From: Acidobacteriota bacterium
GTDB taxonomy: Bacteria > Acidobacteriota > UBA6911
Reading direction: 5' to 3'
Assembly (NCBI GenBank): GCA_016934295.1
Contig: JAFGTD010000174.1
Location: 1-39,011, forward strand
DNA: 39,011 bases
Shown: one piece after another, positions 6,015 to 38,740 of the stretch
How the letters are laid out: every line of letters starts with the position of its first letter
Numbering within the stretch: the stretch's first letter is position 1
Translations under genes and position numbers: made by a program
Notes under the pieces: generated by a model
The model's input: only the letters and a program-made list of their open reading frames with translations
Told to the model about the DNA's origin: nothing
Database searches by the model: none

Positions 6015-6037
6015 GGGGCCTTTCAGGCCCCGTTTTT
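6015..6037 (+). terminator. Rho-independent terminator hairpin
   Basis: GGGGCC (6015-6020), a five-base loop TTTCA and GGCCCC (6026-6031) form a 6 bp G+C stem followed by G and five T on the plus strand, a textbook terminator. No plus-strand gene ends nearby, since the flanking genes are minus. It may therefore block antisense reading toward the tRNA. On the minus strand the hairpin lies ~37 bases after the tRNA 3' end, but only a weak TTGCT follows. Confidence 0.75.
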
Positions 6038-6073: not shown

Positions 6074-6161
<88 letters not shown>

Positions 6162-6175
<14 letters not shown>

Positions 6176-6190
6176 GTGGTTAAGAGTCAA
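6162..6190 (-). promoter_or_regulatory. Sigma70-type promoter of tRNA-fMet (island-supplied copy)
   Basis: On the minus strand TTGACT (6185-6190) and TATAAT (6162-6167) are separated by exactly 17 bases. The TATAAT ends 11 bases before the tRNA 5' end, predicting a very short leader. This is near-consensus, as expected for a stable RNA gene. The copy lies inside the island end and reads out into the tRNA. Confidence 0.9.
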
Positions 6191-6261
6191 GGCAATCCTC
6201 AATAAAATCAATAGTCTGAGGAAATCATTGATTCCATTGGGTATGCCGTTGGACAGTACCA

Positions 6262-7452
6262 TTATTGTACGCTTCCCTTCTCTGAAACCGTTTCTACCAC
6301 AAATCTACCACAGATATCACCGAGCACATTCCCGAGGATTTCTGCACTCTGATCCACCTGTTCCTCGTCCGTGTGAACATAAATATTACCGGTCGTCGAC
6401 AAATCCGAGTGCCCGAGTTGCCCCTGAGCCATTTTTAAGCTCCCGGTCAACTTGTGAATTACAGATCCTGCGTAATGCCTAAAAGCATGACATCCTGATT
6501 GTCGAGGGACATAGGTAATACCGGCCGCTTTAAGAGCCGGATATATTCCCTGCTTCCGCAACGTATCGGGATTCATAGGCGATCCGTCTTCTCTGCAAAA
6601 CACAAAATCTTCCAGGTCGGTAAAATTCGAGCTTTTCCGATGTTCCAAAAGGATATGTGATAGTGGTTCGGAGATACCGAGTTCCCTTTCGCTGGCCTCT
6701 GTTTTTGTTGGAACCGGATTCTTCCGCCAAAGACTATTGGCTATCACAATCCGTTTTCGGAGAAAATCGACATTCTTCCATTTAATAGCCAGCAATTCAC
6801 CTACACGGACACCCGATAATGCAAAGACAATCAGAGGGATCCTGTATTTCGGATTAACTGCTGACAATAAGGCTTTGACCTGTTCGATGTTCCAGACAAT
6901 TTTTTTTGCCCGAACCACCTTGGGACGATGGATCTTCGGATTAATAGGATTGGATGTCATATATCCATTAAACTGGGCTACCTCAAACATCAATCGAAGG
7001 ACTTGATATATATTCAACCGATATTTCGCACCCAGCCCTTCAGACTGGAGGAAATTAATAAAACTGCCCACATCCGCGGAATCGATTTCATCGAGAACTC
7101 GATTTCCGAAATACGGCCGTATCCAATTTTTAACAATGGAATCCCACGAAGCGAGAGTTGACTCCCTTACAGCTTGATTAGCCAAATAATTCGGCCAAGG
7201 AGTATTGAGGAGATCCGACATTGTTTTTAGGCTATGAGTCATACCGCCGTTAGATCCATTTATCTTACGGAGCCGTTCATCAAGCACCTTTTGGGCTGCT
7301 TTTTTATTTTGGCAATCCCGCAAAGTCTCGGTGACTTGCTTCCATCCCCCATCGGGCTTACGTTCTCGATAGCGGATCTGGAAGACCGTCCGGTTTTTTG
7401 TTTTTACCAGTCTTATGCTTCCTTTTTGATAAGATTTCTTTTTGCGAGTCAT
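6262..7452 (-). CDS. int: Tyrosine recombinase/site-specific integrase of the island
   Basis: A ~396-residue phage-type integrase. An N-terminal arm-binding-like region (YQKGSIRLVK..., residues 7-60) leads into a SAM-like core-binding domain (about 75-180) and a catalytic domain with the full set: Arg in SGVRVGELL (R216), HxxR in HAFRHYA (H322, R325), His in LGHSDLSTT (H348) and the nucleophile in NIYVHT (Y358). The ATG at 7452 has AGGAGA 7 nt upstream. A longer in-frame start at 7512 would lie deep in the preceding gene. The gene ends ~110 bases from tRNA-fMet, and its 5' end overlaps the small RHH-like gene by ~95 bases in another frame. It should excise and insert the island at the tRNA. 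Confidence 0.95.
   Translation of the reverse strand: MTRKKKSYQKGSIRLVKTKNRTVFQIRYRERKPDGGWKQVTETLRDCQNKKAAQKVLDERLRKINGSNGGMTHSLKTMSDLLNTPWPNYLANQAVRESTLASWDSIVKNWIRPYFGNRVLDEIDSADVGSFINFLQSEGLGAKYRLNIYQVLRLMFEVAQFNGYMTSNPINPKIHRPKVVRAKKIVWNIEQVKALLSAVNPKYRIPLIVFALSGVRVGELLAIKWKNVDFLRKRIVIANSLWRKNPVPTKTEASERELGISEPLSHILLEHRKSSNFTDLEDFVFCREDGSPMNPDTLRKQGIYPALKAAGITYVPRQSGCHAFRHYAGSVIHKLTGSLKMAQGQLGHSDLSTTGNIYVHTDEEQVDQSAEILGNVLGDICGRFVVETVSEKGSVQ
6291..6312. repeat. Candidate integrase arm-type site, left end
   Basis: Two CTACCACA boxes (6294-6301 and 6305-6312) 3 bases apart, preceded by TTT. The same 22 bases occur exactly at 26301-26322 by the right end, and a degenerate inverted copy is at 7738-7757. 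Paired short repeats flanking both att cores are what arm-binding sites of lambda-type integrases look like. This copy lies inside the 3' end of the integrase gene. Confidence 0.6.
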
Positions 7453-7786: not shown

Positions 7787-8008
7787 TTACAGAGCACGTT
7801 GAGTATCGGACCCAACGATGCCGCCCTTTTCATGCGCCTCCAGCCAGCGCCGGAATTCCGGAGATTCCGGATTGAACCGGACGTATTTCCCGAATTTCGC
7901 ATGAGGAATCGTTTCCGGCCCGTTCGTCCGCGTCCGGTCGTAAATCCACGACTCCGCAACGCCGAGTTCACTGGCAAGGTCTTTCACGGTGCAAAATTTC
8001 ATATTCAT
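7787..8008 (-). CDS. AlpA/Xis-like helix-turn-helix protein
   Basis: A 73-residue protein with a MerR-type/AlpA winged helix: FCTVKDLASELGVAESWIYD, then IPHAKFGKYVRFNPESPEFR, ending in RRWLEAHEKGG. This is the usual layout of excisionase-family DNA-binding proteins (HTH_17 type), which bend att DNA with integrase or activate int. An AAGGAGG site precedes two close ATGs (8008 and 8002). It lies between the ParB-like gene and the RHH/int pair, all same strand, consistent with an integration/excision control cassette. Confidence 0.85.
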   Translation of the reverse strand: MNMKFCTVKDLASELGVAESWIYDRTRTNGPETIPHAKFGKYVRFNPESPEFRRWLEAHEKGGIVGSDTQRAL

Positions 8009-8090: not shown

Positions 8091-9344
8091 CTAACTCTCC
8101 CCCTCTTTCAGGGTTTTCTCCCGTTGATCTTTATCTTTAATTGCTTTGATCCGGGCAGAGAACTTCTTCATCCAGGCTTGCTGTGGTTTACCCTCCACCT
8201 GAGCCTGAAAGGATGTATCCGGCGTTTGTGCCTTTGGGGGTAGGCATCCGTTCTTATGAGATGGCTTCTCATCCGCTGATTTTTCTGCCAGCGGTTCACG
8301 GGGAAGATCCTCAGAACTGGATTCGTTCCCATTGTTACCACGTTTCTCCCTTGATTTGGATTTTAGTGCCTTGCTATGAGCATCACCGACCTGTTCACTG
8401 TTATCTTTGTCTCTGATGATTTCATCGCCTGAGCTGACACATTCTTGAGCCTCATTAATTAACGCGGAAAATGCCTCCTCAAGACTATGCCGATCACCGT
8501 CAGGCGATTCCTTCAGCAAGACTGACAGTCCGCCAGCGGATCGAATTCTCAGGAAAAATGAACGCGACTGCTCAATTCCTTCCTTGACCCAATCAAATGG
8601 ATTGGGCCGGACTCTGGAAACCATCTCATTCGAAACAGATCCGGGGGGATTTTCATTGCAGTCTTTCTGTGCTTCATCCAGTTGTTCAGATTTGGATTTA
8701 CTGGATGATTTCCGCCTCTGGCCGATTTGCGCCGTCTTCATGACGGACGTACTCCCTTGCTTGTTTTTATAAGTGCGAGTTTTATTTTCCTCGTCTTCAG
8801 ATGGACGGCTCGAATCTGTAGCCACACTGTCAACCGTTGACAGTGTATTCCGTAAGTTTGAAACAAGCGTGTTGCTGACTTTGCACCGCCTGGCTATCTC
8901 ACGATCACTCCATTGGCGCAACTCAGGATCCTTCAGGAGCATCGAAACAGCCCGACGTTTATCTTCATTGGTCAGGCGCAGACCATGCGCTGTATTAGCG
9001 CCTACAGCAAATAAGATCGCCTGTCTATTATCGCCCTCTCTGATTTCAGCACTAATTTTTTCCAGACCAGCCTTCTTGGCGGCGTGGAAGCGATGAAATC
9101 CATCGATTAGGTAATAGGCGTTGCCTTTTATTAATACAACCACTGGTGGAAACTCCTCCCCGGATTGCATTGCCGCAGCATAATCGTCAATGGCCTCTTC
9201 ATTCAGGCATTTACGTATCTGGAAAGAATTTTCTATCTTGATATCCGCAATCGGTATCTGATTCCGGCCGATTCTCTTTAATGACATGCCAGCTTGTTTA
9301 TCTGGAGCGGGGCTTGAGGTTGTAGTCTTCTGTAAGGAGGTCAT
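8091..9344 (-). CDS. ParB-like nuclease-domain protein with HTH
   Basis: A 417-residue protein. Residues ~25-115 are a ParB/Srx-type domain with the hallmark YLIDGFHRFHAAKKAG box (78-93) and IREGDNRQAILFAVGANTAHG. Residues ~140-165 form an HTH (WSDREIARRCKVSNTLVSNL). The C-terminal 250 residues are low-complexity, lysine- and serine-rich with a basic end (AWMKKFSARIKAIKDKDQRE). Such proteins in integrative elements usually act in regulation or partition, and several relatives are nucleases. No ParA partner is visible. A strong AGGAGG lies 8 nt upstream. The start overlaps the stop of a 53-codon leader frame by ATGA, so translation may be coupled to it. Confidence 0.8.
   Translation of the reverse strand: MTSLQKTTTSSPAPDKQAGMSLKRIGRNQIPIADIKIENSFQIRKCLNEEAIDDYAAAMQSGEEFPPVVVLIKGNAYYLIDGFHRFHAAKKAGLEKISAEIREGDNRQAILFAVGANTAHGLRLTNEDKRRAVSMLLKDPELRQWSDREIARRCKVSNTLVSNLRNTLSTVDSVATDSSRPSEDEENKTRTYKNKQGSTSVMKTAQIGQRRKSSSKSKSEQLDEAQKDCNENPPGSVSNEMVSRVRPNPFDWVKEGIEQSRSFFLRIRSAGGLSVLLKESPDGDRHSLEEAFSALINEAQECVSSGDEIIRDKDNSEQVGDAHSKALKSKSREKRGNNGNESSSEDLPREPLAEKSADEKPSHKNGCLPPKAQTPDTSFQAQVEGKPQQAWMKKFSARIKAIKDKDQREKTLKEGES
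8825..8845. promoter_or_regulatory. Perfect 10+1+10 palindrome inside the ParB-like gene
   Basis: CACTGTCAAC (8825-8834) and GTTGACAGTG (8836-8845) are exact inverse copies around one C. Its centre TGTCAACCGTTGACA differs by one base from the palindrome at 12385-12399 upstream of the RHH gene. Two near-identical sites 3.5 kb apart in one element suggest a binding site for an element-encoded DNA-binding protein, though this copy also encodes protein. Confidence 0.45.
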
Positions 9345-9809: not shown

Positions 9810-9864
9810 ACGTTTTCGATCAGATTCAATACGTTCCGGATCAGATTCAATACGTTTTGGATCA
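9810..9864. repeat. Tandem 21 bp iteron-like repeats
   Basis: Three head-to-tail units: 9810-9830, 9831-9851 and a partial 9852-9864. All begin ACGTT, and the first two share the last 12 bases (ATCAGATTCAAT after a C/G). They lie directly after the stop of the winged-helix gene in an AT-rich stretch. A 21-22 bp period next to a DNA-binding protein gene is typical of iteron origins or autoregulatory arrays. Confidence 0.65.
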
Positions 9865-9870
9865 TTAATC

Positions 9871-11704: not shown

Positions 11705-11802
11705 AATTCTTCCTTCGTAAGGCCGGGTGTATCGGGAACCTGGCCGTTAATTGATTCTGGTTTCTCAACTGGACTGTAGCTGTGGCAGAATGTTCTGTCA
11801 AT
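11683..11802 (-). repeat. Promoter-leader module, copy 2
   Basis: Second copy of the module, in the same orientation. TTGACA (11796-11801), 17 bases, TACAGT (11773-11778), then the TGAGAAACCAG/CTGGTTTCTCA arms (11757-11767 and 11687-11697) and the internal GGCC hairpin. The ATG at 11704 with GAAGGAAG upstream begins the zinc-ribbon gene, so the second arm lies in codons 3-6. Differences from copy 1 fall mostly in the loop and spacer, while the arms are unchanged. Confidence 0.75.
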
Positions 11803-11922
11803 CAGATATGTCTGTTTTTGCCTAAAATCAGGGTGGGAAACTTCCTGCCCCGCGATGTCTTCATGTCTGCAACACATCTTAAATTGCCAGAAATATATCT
11901 ACCTGGCATTCCGTCCGACAAC

Positions 11923-12594: not shown

Positions 12595-13287
12595 TTAAAG
12601 ATCCATTCCGGCGCCATTTATCCGGAGCCATTCCTTCCGTTCCATGTAATCGGGCATAACCTTGTCCACCTGATTCCAGAATGCGGTCGTGTGATTCGGG
12701 TAAAGGAGATGGGCGAGTTCATGCACAATGATGTAATCCAGAACGGTCGGAGGGGCCATCATGCATTTCCAATGGAAATTGATATTCCCGCCTACGGAGC
12801 AGGAAGCCCACCGGTTCTTGAGGTCTATTATCCGCACGGACTTCGGTTCAACACCCATGCGTTTCCTATAATGCTCAACCCGTTCTCCGATTCGTTTCTT
12901 CCCCTTCTGTCGGTAGAACTCCTTGAAGGCAGTATCCGGATCCGGAGCCGTGCCGCCGTTCGTTCGGAGACAAAAATAGCCATCCTTGAGCATCAAAGGA
13001 TTATCCTGCGAGGCGACCAGCTTGAGCCGATATGTTCGCCCCAGATACAGGAATCCTTCGCCATTAACGTATTCACGGCGAACTCTTGCGGCGTTGAGAT
13101 CCTTCCATTCAGCCAGATTCCGGTAAATCCACTTCCTCTTGCTTTCGATTAGCTCTTGGATCTGCCTTTTTGACAGGTTCTCCGGGACAAGGACTGACAC
13201 GGCGCCATCCCGCTCGATGTAAATACTGGCGGTTTTTCGCCTACTGGATTTGAGCGAATATTGGATGTCCTTGTATTGCTCCATCAT
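12595..13287 (-). CDS. YgjP-like (DUF45) M48-clan metallopeptidase
   Basis: A 230-residue protein of normal length for YgjP/DUF45 zinc metallopeptidases. Conserved parts are NRWASCSVGGNINFHWKCMM and the HELAHLLYPNH box, which is HExxH plus a third ligand a few residues on. Such genes very often follow hsdR in type I restriction operons, but no accepted role is known. Proteolytic control of HsdR, as ClpXP does elsewhere, is an idea only. The ATG overlaps the hsdR stop (ATGA), so it is translationally coupled and part of the hsd operon. Confidence 0.9.
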   Translation of the reverse strand: MMEQYKDIQYSLKSSRRKTASIYIERDGAVSVLVPENLSKRQIQELIESKRKWIYRNLAEWKDLNAARVRREYVNGEGFLYLGRTYRLKLVASQDNPLMLKDGYFCLRTNGGTAPDPDTAFKEFYRQKGKKRIGERVEHYRKRMGVEPKSVRIIDLKNRWASCSVGGNINFHWKCMMAPPTVLDYIIVHELAHLLYPNHTTAFWNQVDKVMPDYMERKEWLRINGAGMDL

Positions 13288-16200
13288 TTCACAATGTCCT
13301 GATGACGATTCTTCGCCAGTGCCGTGATTTCAGTGACGATTTTTTCACTATTCTCTACAAGATCATCAATCCCTGTTAACAGAATAAGATCAGACAGCCT
13401 TCCTCTTAACTTGCTGACTTCGGGGCCATTGCTCCAGAAACCAATAATGTTGATGGTACGGCGGAATTCTTCGAACACCTTAATCACAAGTTCTTTCAGT
13501 TTCTCCCTGTATTCTTCAGGCACACCGCCGCTACCAAAGCCTATCTGAGCGATCAGATCGTAAAATGGAGCCGCGTGTGGGCTGATTCCCTCAATATCAT
13601 CCTTTCGCCCTTCTTCGGCTTCCTGACGCAACGGGAAAAGGTTCCGGTATAACTCATCCCAGTCATCCTTGTATTTCTGGATGAGTGCCTCCAGCTTTTC
13701 GCTGAGGTTCTTGTAGAATACCGGATCCTGCTCGAAGTGAACCTTGCAGTGTTTCCGGATGGCGTGTTCCATTTCACTTGCCTTCGCCTTTGCAGACGTG
13801 TTCTTTTCAACCTCGGTAACAAATTTAGGAGAAAGTAGCTCAACGGGCGGGATTTTCGGATTGATCCCAAGGCTGACCAGATGCTCATCGATGAGCTTTT
13901 TCACCTTTTCCCCTGCTCCGGAAATGTTCAGGGACTCATCCTTGTATCGCTCTTTCACCTTGGACAGGATGTAGCCGAATCGTTTGACCGGAATCCGGTA
14001 GGGATTTGCCGCCGCATTGGGTAGCACGATGTCCATACTCTGCATGAATTTCTTGAAATACACTTCAAAATTTGCCCGGAGCCGGATGTCCTCCATCAAC
14101 TCGACAGCATTTTCCAGAACCATGTAGGCTTTCTTCCGGTCAGGGATTTTTTGCTCAACAAAATCCCGGATATCCTTAACTCCATTGTTATAAAACAGAT
14201 TGCACAGGCGGTTGTATCGATCCTCCAGAACCGGAAGTTCAACCGAAATGTCCTTGAGCGAATCCTCGATAATCTTCCGGTCATCGGTAGCGTAGATGGA
14301 CAGTGCCTCTTTAAGGTGGTTTGCCAAGCCGATGTAATCGACAATGTAGCCGCGACTCTTTCCCTTTGCGACCCGATTTACACGGGCAATGGTCTGGAGA
14401 AGGTTGTGATCCCGAACCTTCTTGTCGATATACATCACCTGTTCCACTGGCGCATCGAAGCCGGTAAGAAGCATGTCGCATATAACAAGAAAGGCAATGC
14501 CGGTATTTACTTTTTCCGGATCGTCATAGTTGAATGTCCGTTTGAAATTCTCGACTGCATCAACCGACTTGGCATGTTTCCGGGCTTGAGTAATCAGGGC
14601 GGGTTCATTCGTACCCTCTGAGGACACGACAACAACCGATTGCAGGAAACCGATCCTCTTGCACAGATCATCATCCCTGTAGATGCCACTGTCTTCCTCC
14701 GGTTTTGCGCCCGGATCTCCTTCCCATTCAGGCTTGGACTGCTCCAGTTTCAGTCGTTCCGTCAGTGCCTTATCAATGGCCTTTTTGTATTTGACCGCCG
14801 CCATCTTGGATGAACACACTACTTGGGCCTTGAAACCGTTGGGGAGGATGTCACCGACATAATGATTGACCATATCCGTGGCAATGGCTTCAATCCGTTT
14901 GTCGGCTTCGAGAATATCGCCGGCAGTGCCCCATTTCTTCTTCAGTTCCAGAATTTCCTGTTCAGATCGTTCCCTTACGAGATCATCGAACGGCTTCTGC
15001 TCCCGTTCCGCCATCCGTCTGAGTTTGGCGATATTTTCATCCTTCCTCATCTGCGAATAGACGTGTCCCTCGGCCAGTTCCGCAACCTTGGAGTCCAGCT
15101 CATATTTCCGGTCAATGGCTGCATCCGACGTTTTGCCTTCATAAAGGATCTGAACAGTCGCTCCGTCATCAACCGCATCCTGCAATTTGTATTTGTCGAT
15201 GTAATGCCCGAATCGCTCGACCGTTTTCTTCTTGTCTTTGACAAGAATCAGGGGAGTTCCGGTAAATGCCAGACGCGTGGCATTGGGGAAAGCCTCGAAC
15301 AGATTGTCTCCCAGATCACCGGACTGTGTTCTGTGCGCCTCATCGATCATGAGCAGGATCCGTTCTGACCGGTTCACAATACCGAAAGTCTGAAACTTCG
15401 GAATTTCCAGAACACTTTCAAGATAGTCGGGCAAGTTCTGATCCCGCACCTCCTGAAACTTATGAACCATGACCATATTGAGGTTTGAGGAATCATTTGA
15501 GAGCTTCTCTCTCAAGTCGGCTGTACTGGTTACGTATGTGACCTTTTCACCGGCTAATTCCGCTGTTTCGCCAAGCTGTTCCTCCAGATCGGTGCGGTCG
15601 TTTATCAGGCATATCTTGTAGTCCTTGAGATCGTCGCACATGCGGATCTTGCGAATGACGAAAACCATAGCGAGGGATTTCCCGCTCCCCTGGGTGTGCC
15701 AGATCACTCCGGATCGTTCTGCGGGTGTTTTCCCCATGCGAAGCCGGTCGATAACCTTGTTCATGGCGCGGTATTGCTGGTATCGGCTGACGATTTTCGC
15801 CCGGGTTTTACCTACCTCCATGAACACCGTACAGTTCCGGACGATATCGAGGAATGTCTCCTTCGGGAACATCCCCTGTATAAGAAGCTCTTGTTGCCGC
15901 ACCTTGCCGAGGGGTGGTGTATAGCTCCGATACTTTTCCGGGTAAATGTCCCGCCATGGATAGAAGAACTCTTCCTCAGTGGATGTAATGGTTCCGAACT
16001 CAGCCTTCTCGCCGTTGGTACGAATCAGTACCTGGTTTGTGAAGAACAGACGGGGTTCACCCTCTCTCAATCCTGATATTTTTGTTTCCTCCCGCTGATC
16101 CGCGTAGCGCATCAACTGGCGGAACGCCTCGTACATGGGATTGGCTTCGACATGGCTGGCATCCTTGCACTCGATAACTGCCATGGGGAGACCATTTACG

Positions 16201-16661
16201 AACAGGACAATATCCGGAATGATACAGTCCTTTACTCCGCCCGGAGTATCGATGCGGAACTGGTTGATAGCCAGAAAGTGGTTGCGCTCAGGGTGATGGA
16301 AGTCGATCAGATGAACATCGGGATACTCTTCACCGGTTAATTCATTCACGTCGACCTGAGTACGGTACAGAAGTTTCAGTACACTCTCATTGGCTTCCAG
16401 AAGACTGGCACCCGGGTGATGAAGGATCTGGTCGTGGAGTTCGTCGAGTTGTTTGTCGGTAAGCCATTGCTGGCTGTCTTCGGTGAGGTTAATGGATCGG
16501 ACGCTCCGGTTGAAAATGTCGCGGAGAATGATAGTTCGAAAGTCGATACGGTAACTTCTGGCGGGATCCGTAGGAAAAGCCGGGCTCTGATCGGCAACCT
16601 CCCATCCAAGGGCGGCTAACTGGTCAAGGAACGGCTTTTCGACATACTGGTATTCAGACAT
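13284..16661 (-). CDS. hsdR: Type I restriction enzyme, R subunit
   Basis: Full-length HsdR of 1125 residues, the endonuclease-translocase subunit of a type I restriction complex. The N-terminal PD-(D/E)xK nuclease is seen at PD (149-150) and ECK (164-166). The SF2 motor follows with Walker A WHTQGSGKS (321-329), DEAH (440-443), FTGTP (motif III) and a C-terminal helicase half including ITQARK and QTIARVNR (motif VI). A long helical C terminus contacts the methylase core. It overlaps hsdS upstream by 8 bases and the YgjP gene downstream by 4. No frameshift or missing motif is seen, so the nuclease should be active. Confidence 0.97.
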   Translation of the reverse strand: MSEYQYVEKPFLDQLAALGWEVADQSPAFPTDPARSYRIDFRTIILRDIFNRSVRSINLTEDSQQWLTDKQLDELHDQILHHPGASLLEANESVLKLLYRTQVDVNELTGEEYPDVHLIDFHHPERNHFLAINQFRIDTPGGVKDCIIPDIVLFVNGLPMAVIECKDASHVEANPMYEAFRQLMRYADQREETKISGLREGEPRLFFTNQVLIRTNGEKAEFGTITSTEEEFFYPWRDIYPEKYRSYTPPLGKVRQQELLIQGMFPKETFLDIVRNCTVFMEVGKTRAKIVSRYQQYRAMNKVIDRLRMGKTPAERSGVIWHTQGSGKSLAMVFVIRKIRMCDDLKDYKICLINDRTDLEEQLGETAELAGEKVTYVTSTADLREKLSNDSSNLNMVMVHKFQEVRDQNLPDYLESVLEIPKFQTFGIVNRSERILLMIDEAHRTQSGDLGDNLFEAFPNATRLAFTGTPLILVKDKKKTVERFGHYIDKYKLQDAVDDGATVQILYEGKTSDAAIDRKYELDSKVAELAEGHVYSQMRKDENIAKLRRMAEREQKPFDDLVRERSEQEILELKKKWGTAGDILEADKRIEAIATDMVNHYVGDILPNGFKAQVVCSSKMAAVKYKKAIDKALTERLKLEQSKPEWEGDPGAKPEEDSGIYRDDDLCKRIGFLQSVVVVSSEGTNEPALITQARKHAKSVDAVENFKRTFNYDDPEKVNTGIAFLVICDMLLTGFDAPVEQVMYIDKKVRDHNLLQTIARVNRVAKGKSRGYIVDYIGLANHLKEALSIYATDDRKIIEDSLKDISVELPVLEDRYNRLCNLFYNNGVKDIRDFVEQKIPDRKKAYMVLENAVELMEDIRLRANFEVYFKKFMQSMDIVLPNAAANPYRIPVKRFGYILSKVKERYKDESLNISGAGEKVKKLIDEHLVSLGINPKIPPVELLSPKFVTEVEKNTSAKAKASEMEHAIRKHCKVHFEQDPVFYKNLSEKLEALIQKYKDDWDELYRNLFPLRQEAEEGRKDDIEGISPHAAPFYDLIAQIGFGSGGVPEEYREKLKELVIKVFEEFRRTINIIGFWSNGPEVSKLRGRLSDLILLTGIDDLVENSEKIVTEITALAKNRHQDIVK

Positions 16662-17970
16662 CTTCCGTCTCCGTATCGGTTTTGACTCTAACTTTGCCGG
16701 TGAGAAGGTCTTGCATCAAGCCTCGCTTGATCGCCTGATATTTGGCAATCAAGGATTCGGTTTTTTCAATCTGGTTGTCGACCGTCGTAAGTATAAGAGC
16801 TATTGTGCATTGTTCGGTGATGGGTGGTAGAGAAATAACAAACTCACGCAAGTCAGCTTGGAATAGATGAGGGACACCCAGCCCAGCCTTCTTCAAGGTA
16901 ATCAGCTTTTGAAAATCTTCGCCATTTACATAATGGAAAAGAAATTCAGGATAGAGAGTATTTCTTTTGGTTCGGACAACCGCGATGGAGCCATTCACTG
17001 TAGCGGGGCGGGGCATTTTACGCACAAAGCTGCAAATACCCAAGGTCGATCCGTCCTTGACAATTAAGACGTCATGTTCACGAAGTTGTATCTCCGGTGA
17101 TTCCTCATATCGCCACTTCGAAATGAAATCAACGTTATGAAAGTCGATCTGATTCCCTTTTAGATTTGGAGTAGAGAGGAAAATATACCCATCATCTACA
17201 TATTCTTCCGCTTTTAATCCCTTCCAGCCCAGTCGTGCTTTAACTGTGGTGTGATCTCCCAAGCGGACGGAATGCCACCCCTTCGGGATCCAGCCAAGTT
17301 CCGACTCCTTATACAATTCCGGCGCCTCCTCGAACGTCGGCCTTAATCGCCCGTGTTCGTCCACGCCACGGGCAAACAAATCTTGCATCATCCCCTGCTT
17401 GATCGCCTGATATTTGGCAATCAGGGCTTCAGTATTTTCAATCAGGTTGTCGACCGTGGTGAGGATACGGGCGATTTTGCGTTGTTCGAACAGTGGTGGC
17501 AAGAGGAGTTTATATCGAAAGAAAAAATCTGTAGATACACGTTGTTGACCAGCGGAACCTGTAAAATTAGTTACTGCTTTTTTTCTCAGTTCATCAGATA
17601 GTGAGAGATGATAGATAAATTGAGGGTCACCAAAATTATTTGCTCTCAATACATGAAATTCAGTACTGCCAAATCCTACCCCGCTTTCTAAGTTAGTTGC
17701 CCAAGCTCCTTTTCCGTTTTCCATGCAGGGCGTAATTTTTGCAAACAGAACGTCCTTTTCTTGAAATCTTGTAAATCCATTCCGCACTTCCTTTAATTGA
17801 CGAGATTGCCGCTGAATTATGTGTCCACTTTCACTCACATCTGCCATAGATAGAAAACTAACAACATTTTCATCACATAGCCCTGCGATGCTAACAGGTG
17901 GATTGACATCAAGGATATCTGTTAAATGCCCATATTGCCATCTGCATGGAATTTCATCCCAATCACTCAT
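16654..17970 (-). CDS. hsdS: Type I restriction enzyme, specificity subunit
   Basis: A 438-residue HsdS with the classical two-half design: target-recognition domain 1 (about 10-165), a conserved helical spacer ([20 protein letters not shown], then [14 protein letters not shown]), domain 2 (about 225-380) and a second near-copy of the spacer ([20 protein letters not shown], then [13 protein letters not shown]). It sets the bipartite DNA target for both methylation and cleavage. The target cannot be predicted from sequence alone. It overlaps hsdM and hsdR by 8 bases each. The two spacers are also repeated at DNA level, which allows recombinational domain exchange. No invertase or extra hsdS fragment is present. 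Confidence 0.95.
16711..16798. repeat. hsdS internal direct repeat, spacer 2
   Basis: About 88 bases matching 17382-17469 with a minority of mismatches (shared runs such as GATCGCCTGATATTTGGCAA). It encodes the second conserved helical spacer of HsdS. Confidence 0.75.
17382..17469. repeat. hsdS internal direct repeat, spacer 1
   Basis: Partner of 16711-16798, encoding the first helical spacer between the two recognition domains. The pair lies 671 bases apart in direct orientation. Confidence 0.75.
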
Positions 17971-20578
17971 ATCCCAACTCCACCAGGAACAGATTCAGCT
18001 TTTCAGCTTCCTTATCCCGCTCTTCCAGAATCTGCTTCGTTGTCACAGCATATTTGTCCCACAGATTCTCTATAGCCGCGATAAACGCCCTCTGATACTG
18101 CCGTAGATACCCCTCATACTGTTCTAATAAAAGCATCTGAAGTCGTTCCAGTATCAATCCTTTCGCTTCATCCTCACTGATCTTTCCACGGGCAGCGGCT
18201 ACAAGATCATCCTTCTTCTTTTCGCTGGCACGGATATTCGCCTTGAGCATCTTCAGTTCGTTTTCCAGTTCCGTTTGCCGGGAAAGTTCCTCGTCGATCT
18301 GCTCCACCCTCCGGGATTTATCAAAGCCTTCAGCCTCTATATCATTTGCTTCAGCACGGGCTTCATTGATCTCAGACCGGATTGACCCAGCTTTTTCCAT
18401 CCGCTTAATATTTTTTCTTATCTCCCGGACTTCCTTTTTTATCTGGCGGATTTCACCGTTCAGGGCCTTCTTTTCATCCTTCAGAGCCTTCACTCTGGAC
18501 TTCGGTAGAACTCCATCGTCGGACTCTTCAGGTTCAGCTTCTTCGTCCTCCTCCGATGCATTAGCGGCGGCGAACAATCCCTCCAATTCGGCAATCCGAG
18601 CCTGATCCTTTTCGATCTGCTCCAGAACCTCCGGGAATTGGGACTGTAATATATCTTCTTCAGGTATTAATTCCGGGCCCCATCCACTTGCAGCCACCGA
18701 CTTGAAATCTGCCGCCAGTTGTTTCATATATGCGGCAAATGCCCCACGGATCTGATGGATATCGAGGACTTTAAGTCCCGCCAATGCTTCCCCGACACTG
18801 GATATAAACCGTCGACGAAGCTCAAAGACACTGTTCTTTTCTGGCAGTTCTTCGATATGCCGAACATTCTCACTCCACCACCGATCGAGGGTTTTGAGGA
18901 ATTCCTTGTGTTTCTTCTGTACGCCCGGAGCCGATTCAATCAAGGGTTTGATACTGTCTTTACCATCAATGGCTTTGGCAAAGTCACTGTAACTGTCATC
19001 CCGGGGCCGGAACAGAAGCTCCTTCGTACCTTTATAATTTCGAAAATATCCGCTCAGAGCATCGATTTCAGCCAGCGGCACTCCGCCATTCAGGTGTGCC
19101 CGAACGTCATGCGGCTCGGGTGGAGGGCTGTTATCGACATAGCGCCGAATATTGAGATTAAAATCCTCCTGCTCCAACTCTGTGTGGGGAACGAGTCTGG
19201 AATACTTGGGAACCTCCAGATGTTCGTGATAGACATGCGTGATCTTTTCAATATCCTCCGGTCGCAGTGAGTTCTGGTTCTTTCCCTCCTTGTATTCCCG
19301 GTCTCCATTGATAAAAAGCACACTCTTACGTTTCTGCGCTCCATCCTTGTTGATAACCAGCACACAGGCCGGAATACCGGTACCGTAAAACAGTCCGGGC
19401 GGCAAACCTACGACGGCTTCCAGTAATCCATCCTTGATGAATTTCTTGCGGCACTCCTTTTCCTCGCCCCCCCGGAACAGCACCCCATGAGGCATCACCA
19501 CGGCCATACGGCCGTCGCTTTTCAGTGACGCCACCATGTGCTGTACGAACATCAGGTCAGCCTTCTTACCCGATTCCGGTGTAAAGGTGTGGAACCGTTC
19601 CGGAAACTTCATGCCGTTTCTGGAATAGTTCTGAGAGAATGGAGGATTTGCGATTACACGGTCGAAGCGACGGATTTCACCGTTACTATCGAGATGTTGC
19701 GGGTCTTTGATCGTGTCTCCCTGTCGGATGTCGGCGCTGCGGATCCCATGCAGGATCATGTTCATTTTGCAGATAGACCACGTTCCGCCGTTGCTTTCCT
19801 GTCCGGCCAGCAATAAATTCCGTGAGTTTCCTCCTGTCTCCTGAACGTATTCTTTCGACTGGATGAGCATACCTCCGGATCCGGCACAGGGGTCATAGCA
19901 GGACATACCTTCTCTGGGTCTTATGAGCCGCACCATCATACGGACAACTTCAGAGGGTGTATAAAATTCGCCGCCTTTTTTACCGGCACTGTCGGCAAAA
20001 TATTTAATCAGGTATTCGTAGGCCGCGCCCAGAAGGTCTGGGAACTCAAAATCTTCATTCGAGAGAGGGATTGCATCGAAATGCTGGATAAACTCGACCA
20101 GAGTGCTGTCATCCATCGTCCTTTGGCCGACTTTGCGGTTAAAATTTATGCCTTTCAGCACATCTTGAAGGGTGTCCGGATTGGCGTCTTCAATCGCCTC
20201 CAGAGCCTTATTCAGCCCGGATCCCACGGACTCCTTGAGATGGCGGATTTTGCTCCAGTGGGATTTGGGAGGAACGAAGAAGTCGTATTTGTCCGGATTG
20301 CTGAGTTGCCGGTCAATCAGGTCGGATTTCATCCCCTTCTTTTCATAATCAGCCCGGAGAACAGCCTGGTCGCTGTCGAACTGATCGCTTGTCCGTTTGA
20401 GAAAGAGCATTCCGAAGATGTATTCCTTGTATTCGGACGCATCCATATTGCCGCGCAGGATGTCACATGCCTTAAACAGGAGGTTTTCCAGCCTTGCCAG
20501 TGTCAGCTTTTCCGGCTTTTTAAATCCCCGACCGTTCGCATGATTGCCCGTCGCTTCTTTCCCTCTGTTTCGGCCCAT
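17963..20578 (-). CDS. hsdM: Type I restriction enzyme, methylase subunit with long coiled-coil tail
   Basis: An N6-adenine methylase of the HsdM family. The N-terminal helical domain is followed by GGEFYTP (202-208), the SAM-binding DPCAGSGGM (229-237) and catalytic NPPF (311-314). At 871 residues it is several hundred longer than the common ~500-residue HsdM. The extra part from about residue 500 is charged and helical, with a long coiled coil ([40 protein letters not shown]) and an acidic linker ([13 protein letters not shown]). Long-tailed HsdM variants exist. The tail probably takes part in holding two HsdM on one HsdS, but that is inference. It is the first gene of the hsd operon and overlaps hsdS by 8 bases. 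Confidence 0.95.
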
Positions 20579-20837: not shown

Positions 20838-22256
20838 CTAATTAAATAATGAGTTTAGAAAGCGATAGATTTCTACCATCGCAAAGGTATCTCGTTCACA
20901 ATACAACAAGAGGTCGTTAGCAATCTTTTTTGCTTCTTCCTCCTCAGCATTGACCATTCTCTGCCATGCCTCCATGGCCACAGATCCCTCCTGAACTTGA
21001 AGATCCTCGTAATTAAGACAAGGACAAATAACGGGTAAGACTTTCTTTATTGAAGTTGAGCCATCAAACCGTGCATCCACGTACGCTGATTTGAACAATT
21101 CTTCAAGGTCAACCATTCGTTTATTTATATCCATTAAGAAATCATTTTTGTCAGGGAACAGTTTCGTCATTTCATTGTTCTGCGTTTTCTCAAAGGAGGC
21201 GTGCCAAGAGACAATGCTTCCCTCAATTCCAATATCTTCTTGCATCTGCTCTACTAAATGCGATGGTAAACTTCTTTGCCGCTCTAAAAACTCCCGGTGA
21301 GTTAAGCTGCCATCTTTTTGCATGATATGTAGCGAATACTGTACTGGAAAATGCTTGTGGGGACTGGTTCCGTCAATAAGTGGAACGGCTGAGGCGAAAG
21401 TCTCAAAATCAAAAAAATACAAGGGAAACACTAATTGGCTAAGGAAACGTTGGATTTCGCCCATATTGATTTGTGGCCTTGCATTTTTTGCTGCATTAAT
21501 AACAATCCGTTGATTGTCTGATAGAGGGTAGTCATCAGGTATTTCGCCAAGCGCAAATATCTGTTTTGCTATTAAATCATCACGCTTCGTAGCATTAAGC
21601 CTTGGAATGCTATAGATCGATGGTATCGGCACGTTCGGATTGAATATAGAAAATGTATCGCAATGATTTGTGCGTGATTTGTGAAGACATGTGCAACTAT
21701 TTTTATCAATATCGGTTTGCTTTAGCAGTTCAAGTGCATCGTTGATTTCTTTTTCTGTCTCACTGGTGATATGTTCTATATCTTTTGTCACATCTACGAA
21801 AACGAGTAATTGTTCTGGCTCTATATCCCCTTTCCGTACGTATTCACCGTTCAAGTGCACAAGAAATACCTTGTCAAGGTTCAGTCCGGCACGCACTGCG
21901 CATATTTTCTGAAAACAAGCGTCTTTAAGATGGTTATGGGTATTGTCTGTCTTCACGCGGGTGGATGATTTGACTTCATAAAGGATTGTTTTGCCATCGC
22001 TTGTTTGCTCAAGTATATCAGCCCTTGCATATAGACCATCATCGGTCTCAAAAACACGCTGAAATTCAACAATCCTCTCTCCTGCATTTTTGAAATATTT
22101 CTGCACATAACTTTCAACCTCATACCCTTCACGGATCAATTTCCTTAAAAACGCAGAAAATTCTCCTTCTGGATAATTCTCTGGATCATGCTTCAATAGC
22201 CAAAGGGACTTCGGGCAGTTCCGATATTGAAGGAAATCGGTTTTCGTAATCTTCAT
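20838..22256 (-). CDS. DUF2779 protein: Cas4-like nuclease plus DEDD-exonuclease-like domain
   Basis: A 472-residue protein. The N-terminal part starts TKTDFLQYRNCPKSLWLLKH and carries D80 (ARAD) and E94-V-K96 (YEVKSS), the PD-(D/E)xK nuclease pattern of the Cas4/RecB class. Cysteines at 14, 188, 190 and 199 could bind an iron-sulfur cluster. The C-terminal part (from about 275) is DUF2779 with FFDFETF (D283, E285), WHASFEKTQ and YCERDTFAMVEIY (D456), which reads as an RNase-H-fold DEDD 3'-5' exonuclease. The family is known by domain number only. Location between a SIR2-HerA module and a type I restriction operon favours a defence role. It is separated by ~240 bases from KTSC and ~260 from hsdM. 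Confidence 0.8.
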   Translation of the reverse strand: MKITKTDFLQYRNCPKSLWLLKHDPENYPEGEFSAFLRKLIREGYEVESYVQKYFKNAGERIVEFQRVFETDDGLYARADILEQTSDGKTILYEVKSSTRVKTDNTHNHLKDACFQKICAVRAGLNLDKVFLVHLNGEYVRKGDIEPEQLLVFVDVTKDIEHITSETEKEINDALELLKQTDIDKNSCTCLHKSRTNHCDTFSIFNPNVPIPSIYSIPRLNATKRDDLIAKQIFALGEIPDDYPLSDNQRIVINAAKNARPQINMGEIQRFLSQLVFPLYFFDFETFASAVPLIDGTSPHKHFPVQYSLHIMQKDGSLTHREFLERQRSLPSHLVEQMQEDIGIEGSIVSWHASFEKTQNNEMTKLFPDKNDFLMDINKRMVDLEELFKSAYVDARFDGSTSIKKVLPVICPCLNYEDLQVQEGSVAMEAWQRMVNAEEEEAKKIANDLLLYCERDTFAMVEIYRFLNSLFN

Positions 22257-22495: not shown

Positions 22496-22705
22496 CTATG
22501 TTCGGACATAGCGATAACTATTCTTGATATTTTGATTAAGGTAGCGCCCGACAGATTCGGCGCCGATTAAATTATGATATTCCATTTCCGGAACATCGAA
22601 GTATTGATAAACCGAGCCGTTTGTGAATTCGACTTCGAGGGTCATTGTACTCGCATCGTAGCCAATGGAAGTCACATTTGTGGATTGCACCGGCGTTCTG
22701 TTCAT
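22496..22705 (-). CDS. KTSC domain protein
   Basis: A 69-residue single-domain protein matching the KTSC family over its whole length: NVTSIGYDASTMTLEVEFTN, then GSVYQYFDVPEMEYHNLIGA, then SVGRYLNQNIKNSYRY. The domain was named from its occurrence at the C terminus of some lysyl-tRNA synthetases and is otherwise of unknown function. The ATG overlaps the HerA stop (TAATG), with AGGAGA 6 nt upstream, so it is made together with SIR2 and HerA. Close coupling suggests a structural or regulatory partner of that complex, as inference. Confidence 0.9.
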   Translation of the reverse strand: MNRTPVQSTNVTSIGYDASTMTLEVEFTNGSVYQYFDVPEMEYHNLIGAESVGRYLNQNIKNSYRYVRT

Positions 22706-24570
22706 TAATTATCTCCTGAATCATTTATGTTTCGGGGATTTTCACTTCGCCATCTTTCAAGTACACGGGCGTAATCCTCCGGTTGTTTAAGACGGTTCCA
22801 ACCGCTATTCTTCTCTGGATCAAATATCTTCGGGTCGTGACTATCTGGAAGGCGATTTCTGCTCGGTTCATCAATAAGGGCACGTAAGGGGAGATGAACC
22901 GCCTCCCCCACAACTATAGCTTCGCCCGTTCTAAGTGTAGGTAGCATATTAAAGAGACCTTCAAGATTGTCACTCACGGTTCCGGTCACATGAGACCGGT
23001 CAATGGCGTTAGCAAGCCGCATGGCAAACATTGTGCCGCATTGAGACAGGATGGTGGGATCAATCTCCGATGGTCTTTGACTGACAATCATTGCACCCAG
23101 CCCATATTTTCTACCTTCCTTAACAATCCGACGAGTAGCGATGGACGCAGCGCCTTCATTCCCAGCATTCAGGTAGGCATGTGCTTCTTCTAAAACGAAC
23201 AATAATGGTCTGGTTCGGCCTCCTTCCGGAATGTAACGCGCCCAAAAAAGCGCATCAAACAAAAGCCTAATCAACGCACCTATAAGATCCATCAATATGG
23301 ATACCGGTACTCCGGAAAGGTCAAGAATAGTAATCGGTTTATCTCCGCCCACCCATGCTCTAATCAATACATCAAGGTCTTGATTGGGCTGTGAGTTAAG
23401 ATTTTGAAAAGTTGGGTTAGGGCACCATGGGCCGGGACGAAACAAGAAATTATACCTTGTATCTCGGAGAAGTGCCTCAGTAGCCATTATTTGTCGCCTA
23501 ATATTTAGTGGTGAACTACTCAAATACACGCGGTTTGGGCCACCGGAGGTAATCGGGCGAAATCGGGGAGGAATCACTCTCATAATATTACCACGCATTG
23601 GCTGTCCATCCTGTCCCATCTCGATTGCTTCTGTGTCATTACTCTGACTTGCCCCTTGTGCAGTATGTGTAGAACAGACATGCCTGTACAATTCGTACCA
23701 TAGACGGTGAATACTAAATGGAATAGGCGAATCCACTGTCATGGTATCAGCACAAACTCCGTTACGTGCCTGTTCCTGAAGAGAGTCAAGTTTCAACTGT
23801 TTGATCTTTTCGATCATTGCTGCTCTGTCTGCATCTCCCAACCCACGGAAAGGCGTTACACGAATAAGCTCATCAAAACTCAAGGCCCAATAGGGAATAA
23901 AAAGTTGCTGTTCGCCTCTTGCCTCATTCGCATTTACTCGGAAGATTGTCGCTCGATCACTTAAAGCCGTCTGATATTCTCCGTGGATATCCAATACAAT
24001 TATTCGAGCTGATGGATACTGCCCAGGATCGGAAAGTGAGGCGAGGAGGCTTGCCACAGTTGTAGACTTTCCTGATCCCGTTGTGCCCACTACGGCGCTA
24101 TGTCTGGCTATTAATCGATCAATATCGATTAGTGCGGGGATGGATTCCGCGCTTGCAAGGTTACCCACACGAATTAAATTCGGTGAATCTGATCTACCAT
24201 AAATGCGTGTCAAATCTTGTTCTGTTACAAGATGTGCTTCATCACCAATGGTTGGATACTGCGAAATACCGCGCTTAAATCCACTCGACCTCTGGCCTTC
24301 CCCGACTAACTGCACTTTCAACCAGCGATGGCCATAGGGATCAATTTTAGCCAATGTCTCGGGAACAGCCCCAGCTCCAACTTGTGACACGATTCCGAAT
24401 AAGTCTGTAAAGCCGATGGAGATACGAACAAAACTACCAATCTGGCCTATTCGATAGCCATGGCCGTCTATAAATGCCAGCCCGGATACTGTTTCCTTGT
24501 CGAGGGCGATACTAATTGTTGCGCCTTGAACGTCTTGAACAGAACCAAGATAGGTAGGACTGTTAGGCAT
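22705..24570 (-). CDS. HerA-like ATPase of a SIR2-HerA defence module
   Basis: A 621-residue FtsK/HerA-superfamily P-loop ATPase. An N-terminal HAS-barrel-like beta region (about 1-110) precedes Walker A VGTTGSGKSTT (about 161-171), a Walker B-like IIVLDIHGEY (about 190-199) and a later LLFVLEEAHAYL box, then SQRPSEIDPTILSQ (sensor region). Relatives form hexameric rings that move on DNA. With SIR2 they build large assemblies known from antiphage Nezha systems. I choose the ATG at 24570 because GGAGG lies 6 nt upstream inside the SIR2 end. The start at 24636 has no such site. It overlaps SIR2 by 8 bases and KTSC by one base. Confidence 0.92.
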   Translation of the reverse strand: MPNSPTYLGSVQDVQGATISIALDKETVSGLAFIDGHGYRIGQIGSFVRISIGFTDLFGIVSQVGAGAVPETLAKIDPYGHRWLKVQLVGEGQRSSGFKRGISQYPTIGDEAHLVTEQDLTRIYGRSDSPNLIRVGNLASAESIPALIDIDRLIARHSAVVGTTGSGKSTTVASLLASLSDPGQYPSARIIVLDIHGEYQTALSDRATIFRVNANEARGEQQLFIPYWALSFDELIRVTPFRGLGDADRAAMIEKIKQLKLDSLQEQARNGVCADTMTVDSPIPFSIHRLWYELYRHVCSTHTAQGASQSNDTEAIEMGQDGQPMRGNIMRVIPPRFRPITSGGPNRVYLSSSPLNIRRQIMATEALLRDTRYNFLFRPGPWCPNPTFQNLNSQPNQDLDVLIRAWVGGDKPITILDLSGVPVSILMDLIGALIRLLFDALFWARYIPEGGRTRPLLFVLEEAHAYLNAGNEGAASIATRRIVKEGRKYGLGAMIVSQRPSEIDPTILSQCGTMFAMRLANAIDRSHVTGTVSDNLEGLFNMLPTLRTGEAIVVGEAVHLPLRALIDEPSRNRLPDSHDPKIFDPEKNSGWNRLKQPEDYARVLERWRSENPRNINDSGDN

Positions 24571-25777
24571 CATAATCCTCCGGCGTCTGTCGAACATTAC
24601 CAACCAATTCATTGATAAATTGCCCAAAAACAGCAAAGTCGCCTAATTTAAATTTTGCAGAATGTTTGCCATTCTGGCCCTCCGGATCGACCGGCTCCCA
24701 CACGATCCATTCGTTGGTGTCTGCAGATACCAACTCCGCATCCTTTTCAGGCCACTTTGATTCTTGGCTACCGATGATCGCTCCATCTATAGCGAGAATA
24801 TTGAGATTGGAGCGTTTGGAGGCCAGAGCGATAGCTTGAGTGTAGGTATTGATTTCATTGAAAAGTAGCGCAAACGCAATGGCAGATTGATTGGATTGTA
24901 GTCCTTGTATAATAATCTCATTGATGTGTTCATCTCTGAAAGAATATCCACATAAAATGAGCGTGGCAGTTGGCTGCTTGAGGAAAGCACGCAGACGGTC
25001 AATCATAGCGAGATAAGGCATACGTCTGCTCTCTTGGTATTTCAGGTGTGAAGGATGAATGACACGCTTAGTCCCGCCTTCATCTTTAGCCGTTCCACGA
25101 AATACTCCCTTGTTCTCTATCTGATACCAATTAACCGAGCCATGAAGTTTCCATAACCGCGCCCATCGGGGAGGAAGCATGTCTTCCTCCATTGCCCGCA
25201 GATCAAAGAAGGGTTTTCGTACACCTGCAAATCCATCAAAGTAAGGAACACGCGAATCCTCGAATGCCTGTTCCATCAACAAATCATAGTTTGTAGTAAA
25301 AACCTCAATCGGGTTTTCACGCCTTACTGCATCTACCCATCCGGCAATTTGATGGTAAGGTGTATTGGAATTGGTGAGTGTTTTGTCAGCAACTTGGTGG
25401 ATGATTTGGCATATTCTATCATCCAATTTATCCAGTTGCTCGGCAGATAGTCCTCGCACTTCGTCTTTACCGGCCACAGATTGAAGAGCACGGATATGAG
25501 TAAGCATATCCTCAACCGTTACATCGGTACGCCCATCTTTCTCGAAGTGCTCCTGCATGATAGAAAGGAGTGGCCCGTATTCCGTGCATTTCGTTAATTC
25601 ATCACAAACTATACTGGTGATACCTGAGATGTCTGGAATGAGTGGCTCCTTGCCTTCAGGCCCAGTTTTTAAGGCCATAGGACAGCCAGCTCCAAGGAAA
25701 AAACCAATAGGTTTCTTATCGGTGGACAGACATTGTTGTAGATAATTAACCTGTTTATTTGGATCTTGGGTGCTCAT
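24563..25777 (-). CDS. SIR2-family NADase of a SIR2-HerA defence module
   Basis: A 404-residue SIR2-like protein. The NAD-binding GAG motif is in FFLGAGCPMA (29-31), the catalytic region has FTTNYDLLME (N163, D165), and the His is in WKLHGSVNW (H212). A later LILCGYSFRDEHIN is typical of bacterial defence SIR2 proteins. These enzymes deplete NAD+ on infection, not deacetylate proteins. With the downstream HerA it matches the SIR2-HerA (Nezha) arrangement. The ATG has GAGGA 6 nt upstream. It is the first island gene read from the right end, facing the orphaned tRNA promoter at 26457-26485. Confidence 0.92.
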   Translation of the reverse strand: MSTQDPNKQVNYLQQCLSTDKKPIGFFLGAGCPMALKTGPEGKEPLIPDISGITSIVCDELTKCTEYGPLLSIMQEHFEKDGRTDVTVEDMLTHIRALQSVAGKDEVRGLSAEQLDKLDDRICQIIHQVADKTLTNSNTPYHQIAGWVDAVRRENPIEVFTTNYDLLMEQAFEDSRVPYFDGFAGVRKPFFDLRAMEEDMLPPRWARLWKLHGSVNWYQIENKGVFRGTAKDEGGTKRVIHPSHLKYQESRRMPYLAMIDRLRAFLKQPTATLILCGYSFRDEHINEIIIQGLQSNQSAIAFALLFNEINTYTQAIALASKRSNLNILAIDGAIIGSQESKWPEKDAELVSADTNEWIVWEPVDPEGQNGKHSAKFKLGDFAVFGQFINELVGNVRQTPEDYDA

Positions 25778-26406
25778 TTTACATCCTCACAATTAGACTA
25801 CTGTTCGGCACGACCGGCCGGAAATGGAGCAGTGGATTTACCGATTTGAGTTGATGTCTTATATCCTACTTTTTACCCAGCTCGTTGATATCCTCCGTCC
25901 CTCGTATTTATCTGTGAAATCGAATATTTCTAATTTATTAATACGGTAATTTATTGAAAAACGTGGGGGTATTATATGTAGAGTGTCCGAGCGTGGAAAG
26001 AAAAAATTCCATGATGCTCTGTGTGAAAAGGTGTGAAGGTCTTCACAAGCGCATTCCGAAAGGATGATTCATCAAGAAAAAGCTGAGAGTCTGGAAAATT
26101 ATATTTGCGCCGGTCGAGGGAAGATACTGTATAAGAGCCCCACCCCCACCAAGCCCCGATACCTACCCCCCCTACCTCGGGAATTACAGGGCTCGGTTTT
26201 TTCGGGGCAGATTTTATCCTTTTTCATGTAGAGGTTGAGGGATCTTTGTGAGGGATTTGACCGATAATGAAAGTGACTGTAGAAATCAGAATCAGGCGAT
26301 TTTCTACCACAAATCTACCACAATAAGGCCCAAACAGTAGGAAAAATCAGGAAGGATGATCGTTGTAAATTATTGAGCAGAAAGGACGAGCTAATATGAA
26401 TTTGAC
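25778..26406. other. Right-end non-coding region of the island
   Basis: About 630 bases without a credible gene. It contains the SIR2 upstream region, a C-rich stretch (26137-26180), the arm-type pair at 26301-26322, and a cluster of GTGTGAA boxes (26021-26027, 26031-26037) with an inverted TTCACA (26042-26047). No clear intrinsic terminator on the minus strand separates the orphaned promoter from SIR2. Confidence 0.55.
26301..26322. repeat. Candidate integrase arm-type site, right end
   Basis: Exact copy of 6291-6312 with two CTACCACA boxes at 26304-26311 and 26315-26322, about 85 bases inside the attR core. It lies outside any gene, which argues that the match to the integrase-coding copy is functional and not coding constraint. 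Confidence 0.6.
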
Positions 26407-26470
26407 TTATGAGCCCAACGAGCTACCGGACTGCTCCACCCCGCGTCAATGGAGGAATTATAGAGATCGG
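26407..26470. repeat. attR: right copy of 64 bp direct repeat with tRNA half-gene
   Basis: An exact copy of 6112-6175. It holds a 39-base minus-strand tRNA-fMet 5' half (26407-26445) that stops after the anticodon loop, plus its leader and -10 box. No 3' half follows, so this is a displaced fragment, not a functional tRNA. It marks the right junction of the island, giving an element of about 20.3 kb. Confidence 0.92.
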
Positions 26471-26485
26471 AGTGGTTGGAGTCAA
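26457..26485 (-). promoter_or_regulatory. Orphaned tRNA-fMet promoter pointing into the island
   Basis: TTGACT (26480-26485) and TATAAT (26457-26462) with a 17-base spacer on the minus strand, as strong as the copy at the tRNA. It is the presumed original chromosomal promoter, now followed by a 39-base tRNA half and then by the island. The first island gene downstream is the SIR2 gene (start 25777). I found no clear terminator between them on that strand. Confidence 0.8.
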
Positions 26486-26572
26486 GGCAATCCACAATAA
26501 AATCAATAAGCTGCGGAAAGTCTTGATTCTATTGTATCTCCCGTCGAACTGCGCCATTGGATGCGTCCCTTT

Positions 26573-38626: not shown

Positions 38627-38708
38627 GGGCGAACCTTGTGTTCGCCCTTTCCCCTTCTCCAAACAGCCCTGCATATCGCGGCAAGGGCGGACACAAGGTT
38701 CGCCCCTA
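38624..38708. repeat. Inverted repeat with 26 bp arms (REP/terminator-like)
   Basis: Arms 38624-38649 and 38683-38708 match at 25 of 26 bases in inverse orientation with a 33-base loop. They begin TAGGGGCGAACC, a wording I know from dispersed intergenic repeats in many environmental genomes. It lies between two convergent genes and could act as a bidirectional terminator. The left arm includes the stop codon of the lipoprotein gene. Confidence 0.85.
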
Positions 38709-38740
38709 CAAGAGAAACGATCCGACTTGACGTCAGTCCA

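Follow-up and report, generated by a model that had tools for sequence, protein, structure and literature searches.

A predicted island that entered an initiator tRNA gene from its 5′ side leaves the displaced host tRNA promoter facing a SIR2-HerA gene pair

Islands that leave a 5′ fragment of their target tRNA gene are known though uncommon, since 159 of the 3919 tRNA islands in Islander have such a fragment (PMC4383910). In ICEKp1, 5′ RACE, RT-PCR and reporter assays showed that the host tRNA-asn promoter drives int once integration displaces the tRNA terminator, and that stem-loops in the leader reduce this read-through (PMC13023037). The integrases of the archaeal elements pTN3 and TKV4 use the 5′ half of a tRNA gene as attB, and the rebuilt tRNA is cut from its original promoter (PMC8371274, PMC5495485); according to a review, expression of a rebuilt tRNA from another promoter has seldom been seen in bacteria (PMC8371274). 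IMEs in dusA and SXT in prfC integrate from the 5′ side, and the host gene that they interrupt receives a new promoter from the element (PMC8409611). A possible coupling of elements to growth via tRNA promoters has also been discussed (PMC2951348). A literature search at the level of titles and abstract openings, with subscription papers mostly outside it, found no displaced tRNA promoter driving defence cargo.

The locus described here lies in an Acidobacteriota genome of 5.45 Mb (343 contigs, 93.8% completeness). The stretch analysed, which we call the window, is one contig of this assembly (C274; 39,011 nucleotides). As in some of the systems above, the element would have entered its target from the 5′ side; the genes behind the displaced promoter are those of a SIR2-HerA pair. 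The features are listed in Table 1.

Table 1. Positions of the main features in the window
Feature	Position	Strand	Remark
Terminator-like hairpin 3′ of intact tRNA	6015..6031	-	score +13.5; absent behind stub
Intact initiator tRNA-Met	6074..6150	-	sole full copy found in genome
Left copy of 158-bp direct repeat	6106..6263	-	island-borne
Island-borne promoter copy, now before intact tRNA	6162..6190	-	TTGACT-17-TATAAT
Tyrosine integrase, 416 aa	6262..7512	-	ORF whole; Phage_integrase 1.6e-19
Left putative arm-type site	6291..6312	-	22 bp; within integrase 3′ end
NikA-like protein	7358-7651		weak match
Excisionase-like HTH protein	7787..8008	-	weak matches
ParB-like protein	8091..9344	-	
Replication-initiator-like protein	9871-11049	-	weak match
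YgjP-like metallopeptidase	12595..13287	-	
HsdR restriction subunit	13284..16661	-	
HsdS specificity subunit	16654..17970	-	
HsdM, type I methyltransferase	17963..20578	-	
DUF2779 / RNase H-like protein	20838..22256	-	N-terminal part weakly Cas4-like
HerA helicase	22705..24636	-	overlaps SIR2 end
SIR2 of SIR2-HerA pair	24563..25777	-	first gene behind displaced promoter
Untranslated leader, stub to SIR2	25778..26406	-	629 nt
Rival promoter-like site, TTTCCA-17-TATAAT	25971..25999	-	10/12; 194 bp before SIR2
Very stable leader hairpin, poor U tail	26137..26208	-	about -39 kcal/mol
Right putative arm-type site, tandem TGTGGTAGA	26301..26322	-	22 bp, identical to left site
Right copy of 158-bp direct repeat	26401..26558	-	tRNA 5′ half, promoter, upstream host DNA
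tRNA stub, 5′ half of initiator tRNA	26407..26445	-	39 nt; stops in anticodon loop CTCATAA
Displaced host promoter of initiator tRNA	26457..26485	-	TTGACT-17-TATAAT; inside right repeat

The island and its attachment site

ARAGORN detected one tRNA in the window, an initiator-type tRNA-Met, and Rfam concurs. When the whole genome was searched for initiator tRNA, one full copy was found; the second match was the stub in the window and the third covered 63 bp at 76%. With one full copy found in a genome that is 93.8% complete, the only detected initiator tRNA of the host now appears to rely on DNA of the element.

The 158-bp direct repeat runs from the anticodon loop back through the 5′ end of the tRNA and its promoter to about 110 bp upstream of the tRNA, and its two copies are identical at 133 of 158 positions. 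In the right copy the tRNA breaks off after the anticodon loop and unrelated sequence follows. The initial annotation had described a 39-base stub and then about 630 bases to SIR2, which agrees with the 629 nt measured to the SIR2 start. The integrase gene adjoins the left repeat copy, lies 5′ of the tRNA and reads toward it. The 22-bp sequence found near both ends consists of two TGTGGTAGA-like units, the right one lying 79 bp inside the right core; GTGGTAGA occurs seven times in the window against 0.49 expected, and four of the seven occurrences make up the two tandem pairs. These repeats look like arm-type integrase sites. In-silico joining of the two flanks (attB) rebuilt an intact tRNA with the same sequence as the one now in the window. 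Taken together, the repeat, the stub, the integrase position, the arm-type sites and the in-silico attB indicate a tyrosine-integrase island of about 20.3 kb (~6107-26406), which would have entered the tRNA gene from its 5′ side through a crossover in the anticodon loop. As in 5′-fragment tDNA islands, an intact tRNA and an upstream 5′ fragment in the same orientation enclose a tyrosine integrase gene.

In the search for an empty site, none of 13 tRNA loci from relatives shared flanking genes with the window, and the host and element copies of the repeat were assigned by the position of the integrase and the arm sites, not by relatives. The upstream parts of the two copies are about equally close to those of two other genomes (G003 and G008), the left copy being slightly closer. 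Beyond the 3′ end of the intact tRNA, a region low in GC (0.41-0.44; ~4000-6000) holds a C-terminal remnant of a second tyrosine integrase at 4500-4793 on the plus strand. This remnant is likely a decayed ordinary 3′-side element, and the initiator tRNA may have been entered by elements from both sides.

In a list of tRNA matches covering 60 genomes, we counted 16 matches from the anticodon loop to the 3′ end of the tRNA (3′ stubs), in nine genomes, and the only 5′ stub away from a contig edge was that of the window genome; two further 5′ matches, in G014 and G025, stop at contig edges. A pattern search for a 5′ half without a normal 3′ half returned one of 396 genomes of the phylum, again the window genome. 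Relatives of the integrase at E 1e-60 or better occur in G033, G274 and G001, that is, in four of the 396 genomes with the window genome included. These three relatives and a remnant in G015 were each found 3′ of a tRNA-Met and on the opposite strand, the tRNA-Met in G001 being not of the initiator type. Since all these relatives are on the 3′ side, an integrase family that normally sits there appears on the 5′ side in the window. The scan of the viral contig collection gave no relatives of the integrase, and that of genome contigs gave one distant locus. Three relatives (L050, L051 and L054) carry two 3′-half tRNA-fMet stubs per contig, 1.2 to 9.2 kb apart, which are probably tandem 3′-side islands.

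All nine island genes with a clear family match (integrase, ParB-like, YgjP-like, HsdR, HsdS, HsdM, DUF2779, HerA and SIR2) are on the minus strand and read from the displaced promoter toward the tRNA. SIR2-HerA is a defence system with NAD-linked anti-phage activity. The window pair resembles it in its adjacent SIR2-domain and HerA genes, with strong matches to the PADLOC models (SIR2 3.5e-138, HerA 3.7e-154), and differs from it in missing the NCBIfam equivalog cut-offs (60.5 against 500 and 212.4 against 850). As these scores are well below the cut-offs, the pair is best seen as a putative divergent branch.

Several repeats were observed elsewhere in the window. Three tandem 21-bp repeats (9803-9865) lie just downstream of the replication-initiator-like gene and near the ParB-like gene, and they are possible iterons or a partition site of an element able to replicate. 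A 124-bp direct repeat (92%; 9481-9604 and 11683-11806) covers the starts of two different reading frames, both of which begin with MITGFSV and one of which has a TTGACA-17-TACAGT site; judged by its sequence, it is a duplicated promoter and start region. At 38608-38724 there is an inverted repeat with 45-nt arms, 80% complementary and 27 nt apart.

The two promoter copies

The near-consensus promoter that the initial annotation had placed in the right repeat was found as claimed, with 11 of 12 matching positions. On both strands of the 39-kb window, sigma70-like sites with at least 11 of 12 matches were the two tRNA promoter copies only, and such a site arose in just 1.8% of 500 shuffles (minus strand, 25778-26560). 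We then compared the two window copies with the initiator tRNA loci of 12 relatives. The alignment, read by eye, showed TTGAC in 14 of 14 sequences and a TATAAT -10 element in 9 of 14. This conservation before the initiator tRNA of relatives shows that the site is a genuine tRNA promoter. The two window copies have the same hexamers at the same spacing, and the bin covering the spacer differs at 6 of its 20 bases. Because both copies were previously selected as tRNA promoters, the preserved hexamers are no proof that the displaced copy is still in use.

The terminator-like hairpin of the tRNA stays with the intact gene, and integration has separated it from the displaced promoter. When the island was closed into a circle in silico (attP), the island promoter, with identical hexamers and spacing, stood before the same stub and leader. 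The suggestion that a host tRNA promoter had been captured was supported in part: this promoter is displaced, intact, aimed at SIR2-HerA and free of the tRNA 3′ terminator. The further claim that excision would cut the operon off has to be given up, since the island copy takes the place of the host promoter before SIR2 in the circle, and a tRNA-type promoter would stand there in both states.

We propose the following explanation. The defence element would recombine, from the 5′ side, into the anticodon loop of the host initiator tRNA gene. As can be read from the assembled DNA, attP holds the 5′ half of the tRNA together with the element's own copy of the tRNA promoter, so that integration is a reciprocal promoter swap: the copy of the element takes over the tRNA, and the host promoter moves to the far end, where it faces SIR2-HerA without the tRNA terminator. 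The displaced promoter is predicted to be active and to give rise to some or all SIR2-HerA transcripts, at a level lowered by the structure of the untranslated leader, and in the excised circle the identical promoter of the element would do the same job. A stronger reading is that the swap is an expression strategy, in which the cargo sits on a tRNA promoter both in the circle on entry and when integrated. The sole initiator tRNA of the host would at the same time come to need element DNA, so that partial loss of the element would be lethal and it would be kept; we regard this reading as unlikely.

The leader in front of SIR2-HerA

The leader has no ORF of at least 80 aa on either strand, and its ORFs are short, up to 42 aa. 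A standard scan for intrinsic terminators found none in the leader, and a relaxed scan gave four weak matches compared with a shuffle mean of 3.2. In a scored scan, the best candidate was the hairpin at 26208-26137, whose score of -5.9 was reached by 14 of 60 shuffles. As none of the three scans rose above chance, an intrinsic terminator in the leader was rejected as a clear terminator. The earlier statement that no clear terminator is present was upheld by two scans, the standard and the scored one, with the strong hairpin as a caveat. Folded in a 101-nt context, the hairpin reached -40 kcal/mol (z -2.6), and it is a possible attenuator. Read-through from the displaced promoter to SIR2, perhaps attenuated, is plausible, and we give slightly better than even chances to the weak form of the proposal, in which the displaced promoter contributes to SIR2-HerA transcription.

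The alternative that fares best is that SIR2-HerA is transcribed mainly from a promoter of its own in the leader, either the site at 25999-25971 or another one, the displaced tRNA promoter being incidental. This site matches the consensus at 10 of 12 positions and lies 194 bp before SIR2, and for a captured promoter 629 nt is a long leader. However, sites with at least 10 of 12 matches arose in 10.8% of shuffles of the leader region, and the leader is not conserved with the two closest homologues. These are on IMG/VR contigs, L043 (73% for SIR2 and 83% for HerA) and L044 (66% for SIR2), and neither has sequence upstream of SIR2 in common with the window leader. In both, SIR2-HerA sits close behind a co-directional gene; the SIR2 copy in G001 begins at the contig edge. 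The comparison revealed no evident conserved private SIR2 promoter, and the lack of common upstream DNA in these two contigs together with the close co-directional gene suggests that SIR2-HerA relies on whatever lies upstream. We therefore hold an own promoter as the main source to be a tentative and rather doubtful explanation.

It is also conceivable that the displaced promoter fires and its RNA ends within the leader, by pausing at the hairpin or by Rho, as a by-product of 5′-side integration with no role for the cargo. Besides the hairpin and the short ORFs, C-rich and G-poor stretches (26430-26331, 26310-26191 and 26110-25911), with several 80-nt segments in which C is twice G, could load Rho, and in ICEKp1 leader stem-loops attenuate such read-through (PMC13023037). 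Against this, even the best terminator candidate of the leader scores negative, at a value that 14 of 60 shuffles reach, compared with +13.5 for the hairpin behind the intact tRNA, and we judge complete termination to be quite improbable. We consider it extremely improbable that the right repeat, instead of being an attachment site, arose by misassembly or by an old duplication of the tRNA. The assembly is fragmented, but the repeat copies differ at 25 of 158 positions, arm-type sites and an integrase stand where they would be expected, and L071, a distantly related element, is laid out in the same way.

If the displaced promoter does drive the operon, the choice of integration site itself would set the expression of a defence system, and 5′-side islands, which make up a few per cent of those in tRNA genes, would form a class whose cargo-facing promoter is predictable from sequence. 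The matched promoter copy would also make an essential tRNA dependent on mobile DNA.

Other 5′ stubs and comparison with described systems

The search of IMG/VR for tRNA-fMet gave at least 120 stretches. Of the 122 matches among those listed, 119 were intact, two ran into the sequence end and one was a true 5′ stub (L071). Within 1.5 kb of the intact tRNAs among those listed, integrases lay either 3′ of the tRNA (five opposite to it in direction, one in the same direction) or 5′ of it (one opposite, L134; one in the same direction, L071). Two wider stub patterns gave 17 and 22 IMG/VR stretches; pooled with an earlier pattern search, they contained eight non-intact matches (L071, L177, L183, L194, L199, L202, L207 and L209). 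L199 was dropped as a degenerate full tRNA and L207 as the same element as L202, and L177, in which 92 bp separate the stub from an intact tRNA downstream, was left out of the gene count.

In the five elements counted (L071, L183, L194, L202 and L209), the first gene behind the stub was co-directional with the displaced promoter in every case, or in six of six with the window, a small tally in which the first gene of several elements is or may be an integrase, a kind of gene that often reads away from att sites. Pfam identified an integrase as first gene in L183 and L202, where int could thus come under the host tRNA promoter on integration; L194 and L209 gave no clear integrase call. The leader of L183 has a terminator-like hairpin (score +11.6), which counts against read-through there. 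The L071 entry carries less weight because its small first gene (76 aa, no family) is overlapped by antisense ORFs.

L071 provides a complete second example of the window's layout, with an intact tRNA and a same-strand integrase 5′ of it. Both ends have a 27-bp arm-like repeat, and the 39-bp stub is preceded by TTGACC-17-TATGAT; the integrase is 25% identical to that of the window. No good promoter copy was found for the L071 tRNA, so between these two elements a matched copy was seen in the window only. L071 (1-9636) is a complete, satellite-like element of 9.6 kb; its target is the 5′ half of an initiator tRNA, and it carries genes for a capsid, a prohead protease and a small terminase. At L177:2060-2270, a promoter-like stretch and the tRNA-fMet 5′ stub precede an intact tRNA-fMet for which no separate promoter is obvious; the arrangement would fit the loss of a 5′-side element, after which the former promoter reads through the stub into the tRNA.

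Compared with what is described for the known systems, the window is closest in structure to the 5′-fragment islands of Islander, which have an intact tDNA, an upstream 5′ fragment in the same orientation, an integrase between them and an anticodon crossover (PMC4383910); it is unlike them in carrying a full matching promoter copy and in having defence genes behind the displaced one. With pTN3 and TKV4 it shares the use of the tRNA 5′ half and the loss of the original promoter by the rebuilt tRNA, but in those elements integration breaks the integrase gene and leaves the rebuilt tRNA on the integrase promoter (PMC8371274, PMC5495485), whereas in the window the integrase ORF is uninterrupted and the element provides a tRNA-type promoter. 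Integration from the 5′ side with an element-brought promoter for the host gene is likewise known from IMEs in dusA and SXT in prfC, although their targets are protein genes (PMC8409611). As in ICEKp1, integration has parted the tRNA terminator from the promoter; ICEKp1, however, integrates on the 3′ side and leaves the tRNA intact behind its own promoter (PMC13023037), while the tRNA in the window is split. The captured gene of ICEKp1 is int, and in the window the first gene is SIR2 with the integrase at the other end. Excised ICEKp1 uses another promoter, at the 3′ end, whereas the excised window island would rely on its own copy of the tRNA promoter. What is new in the window is that defence cargo, and not an integrase, stands behind the displaced promoter, together with a matched promoter for the only detected initiator tRNA.
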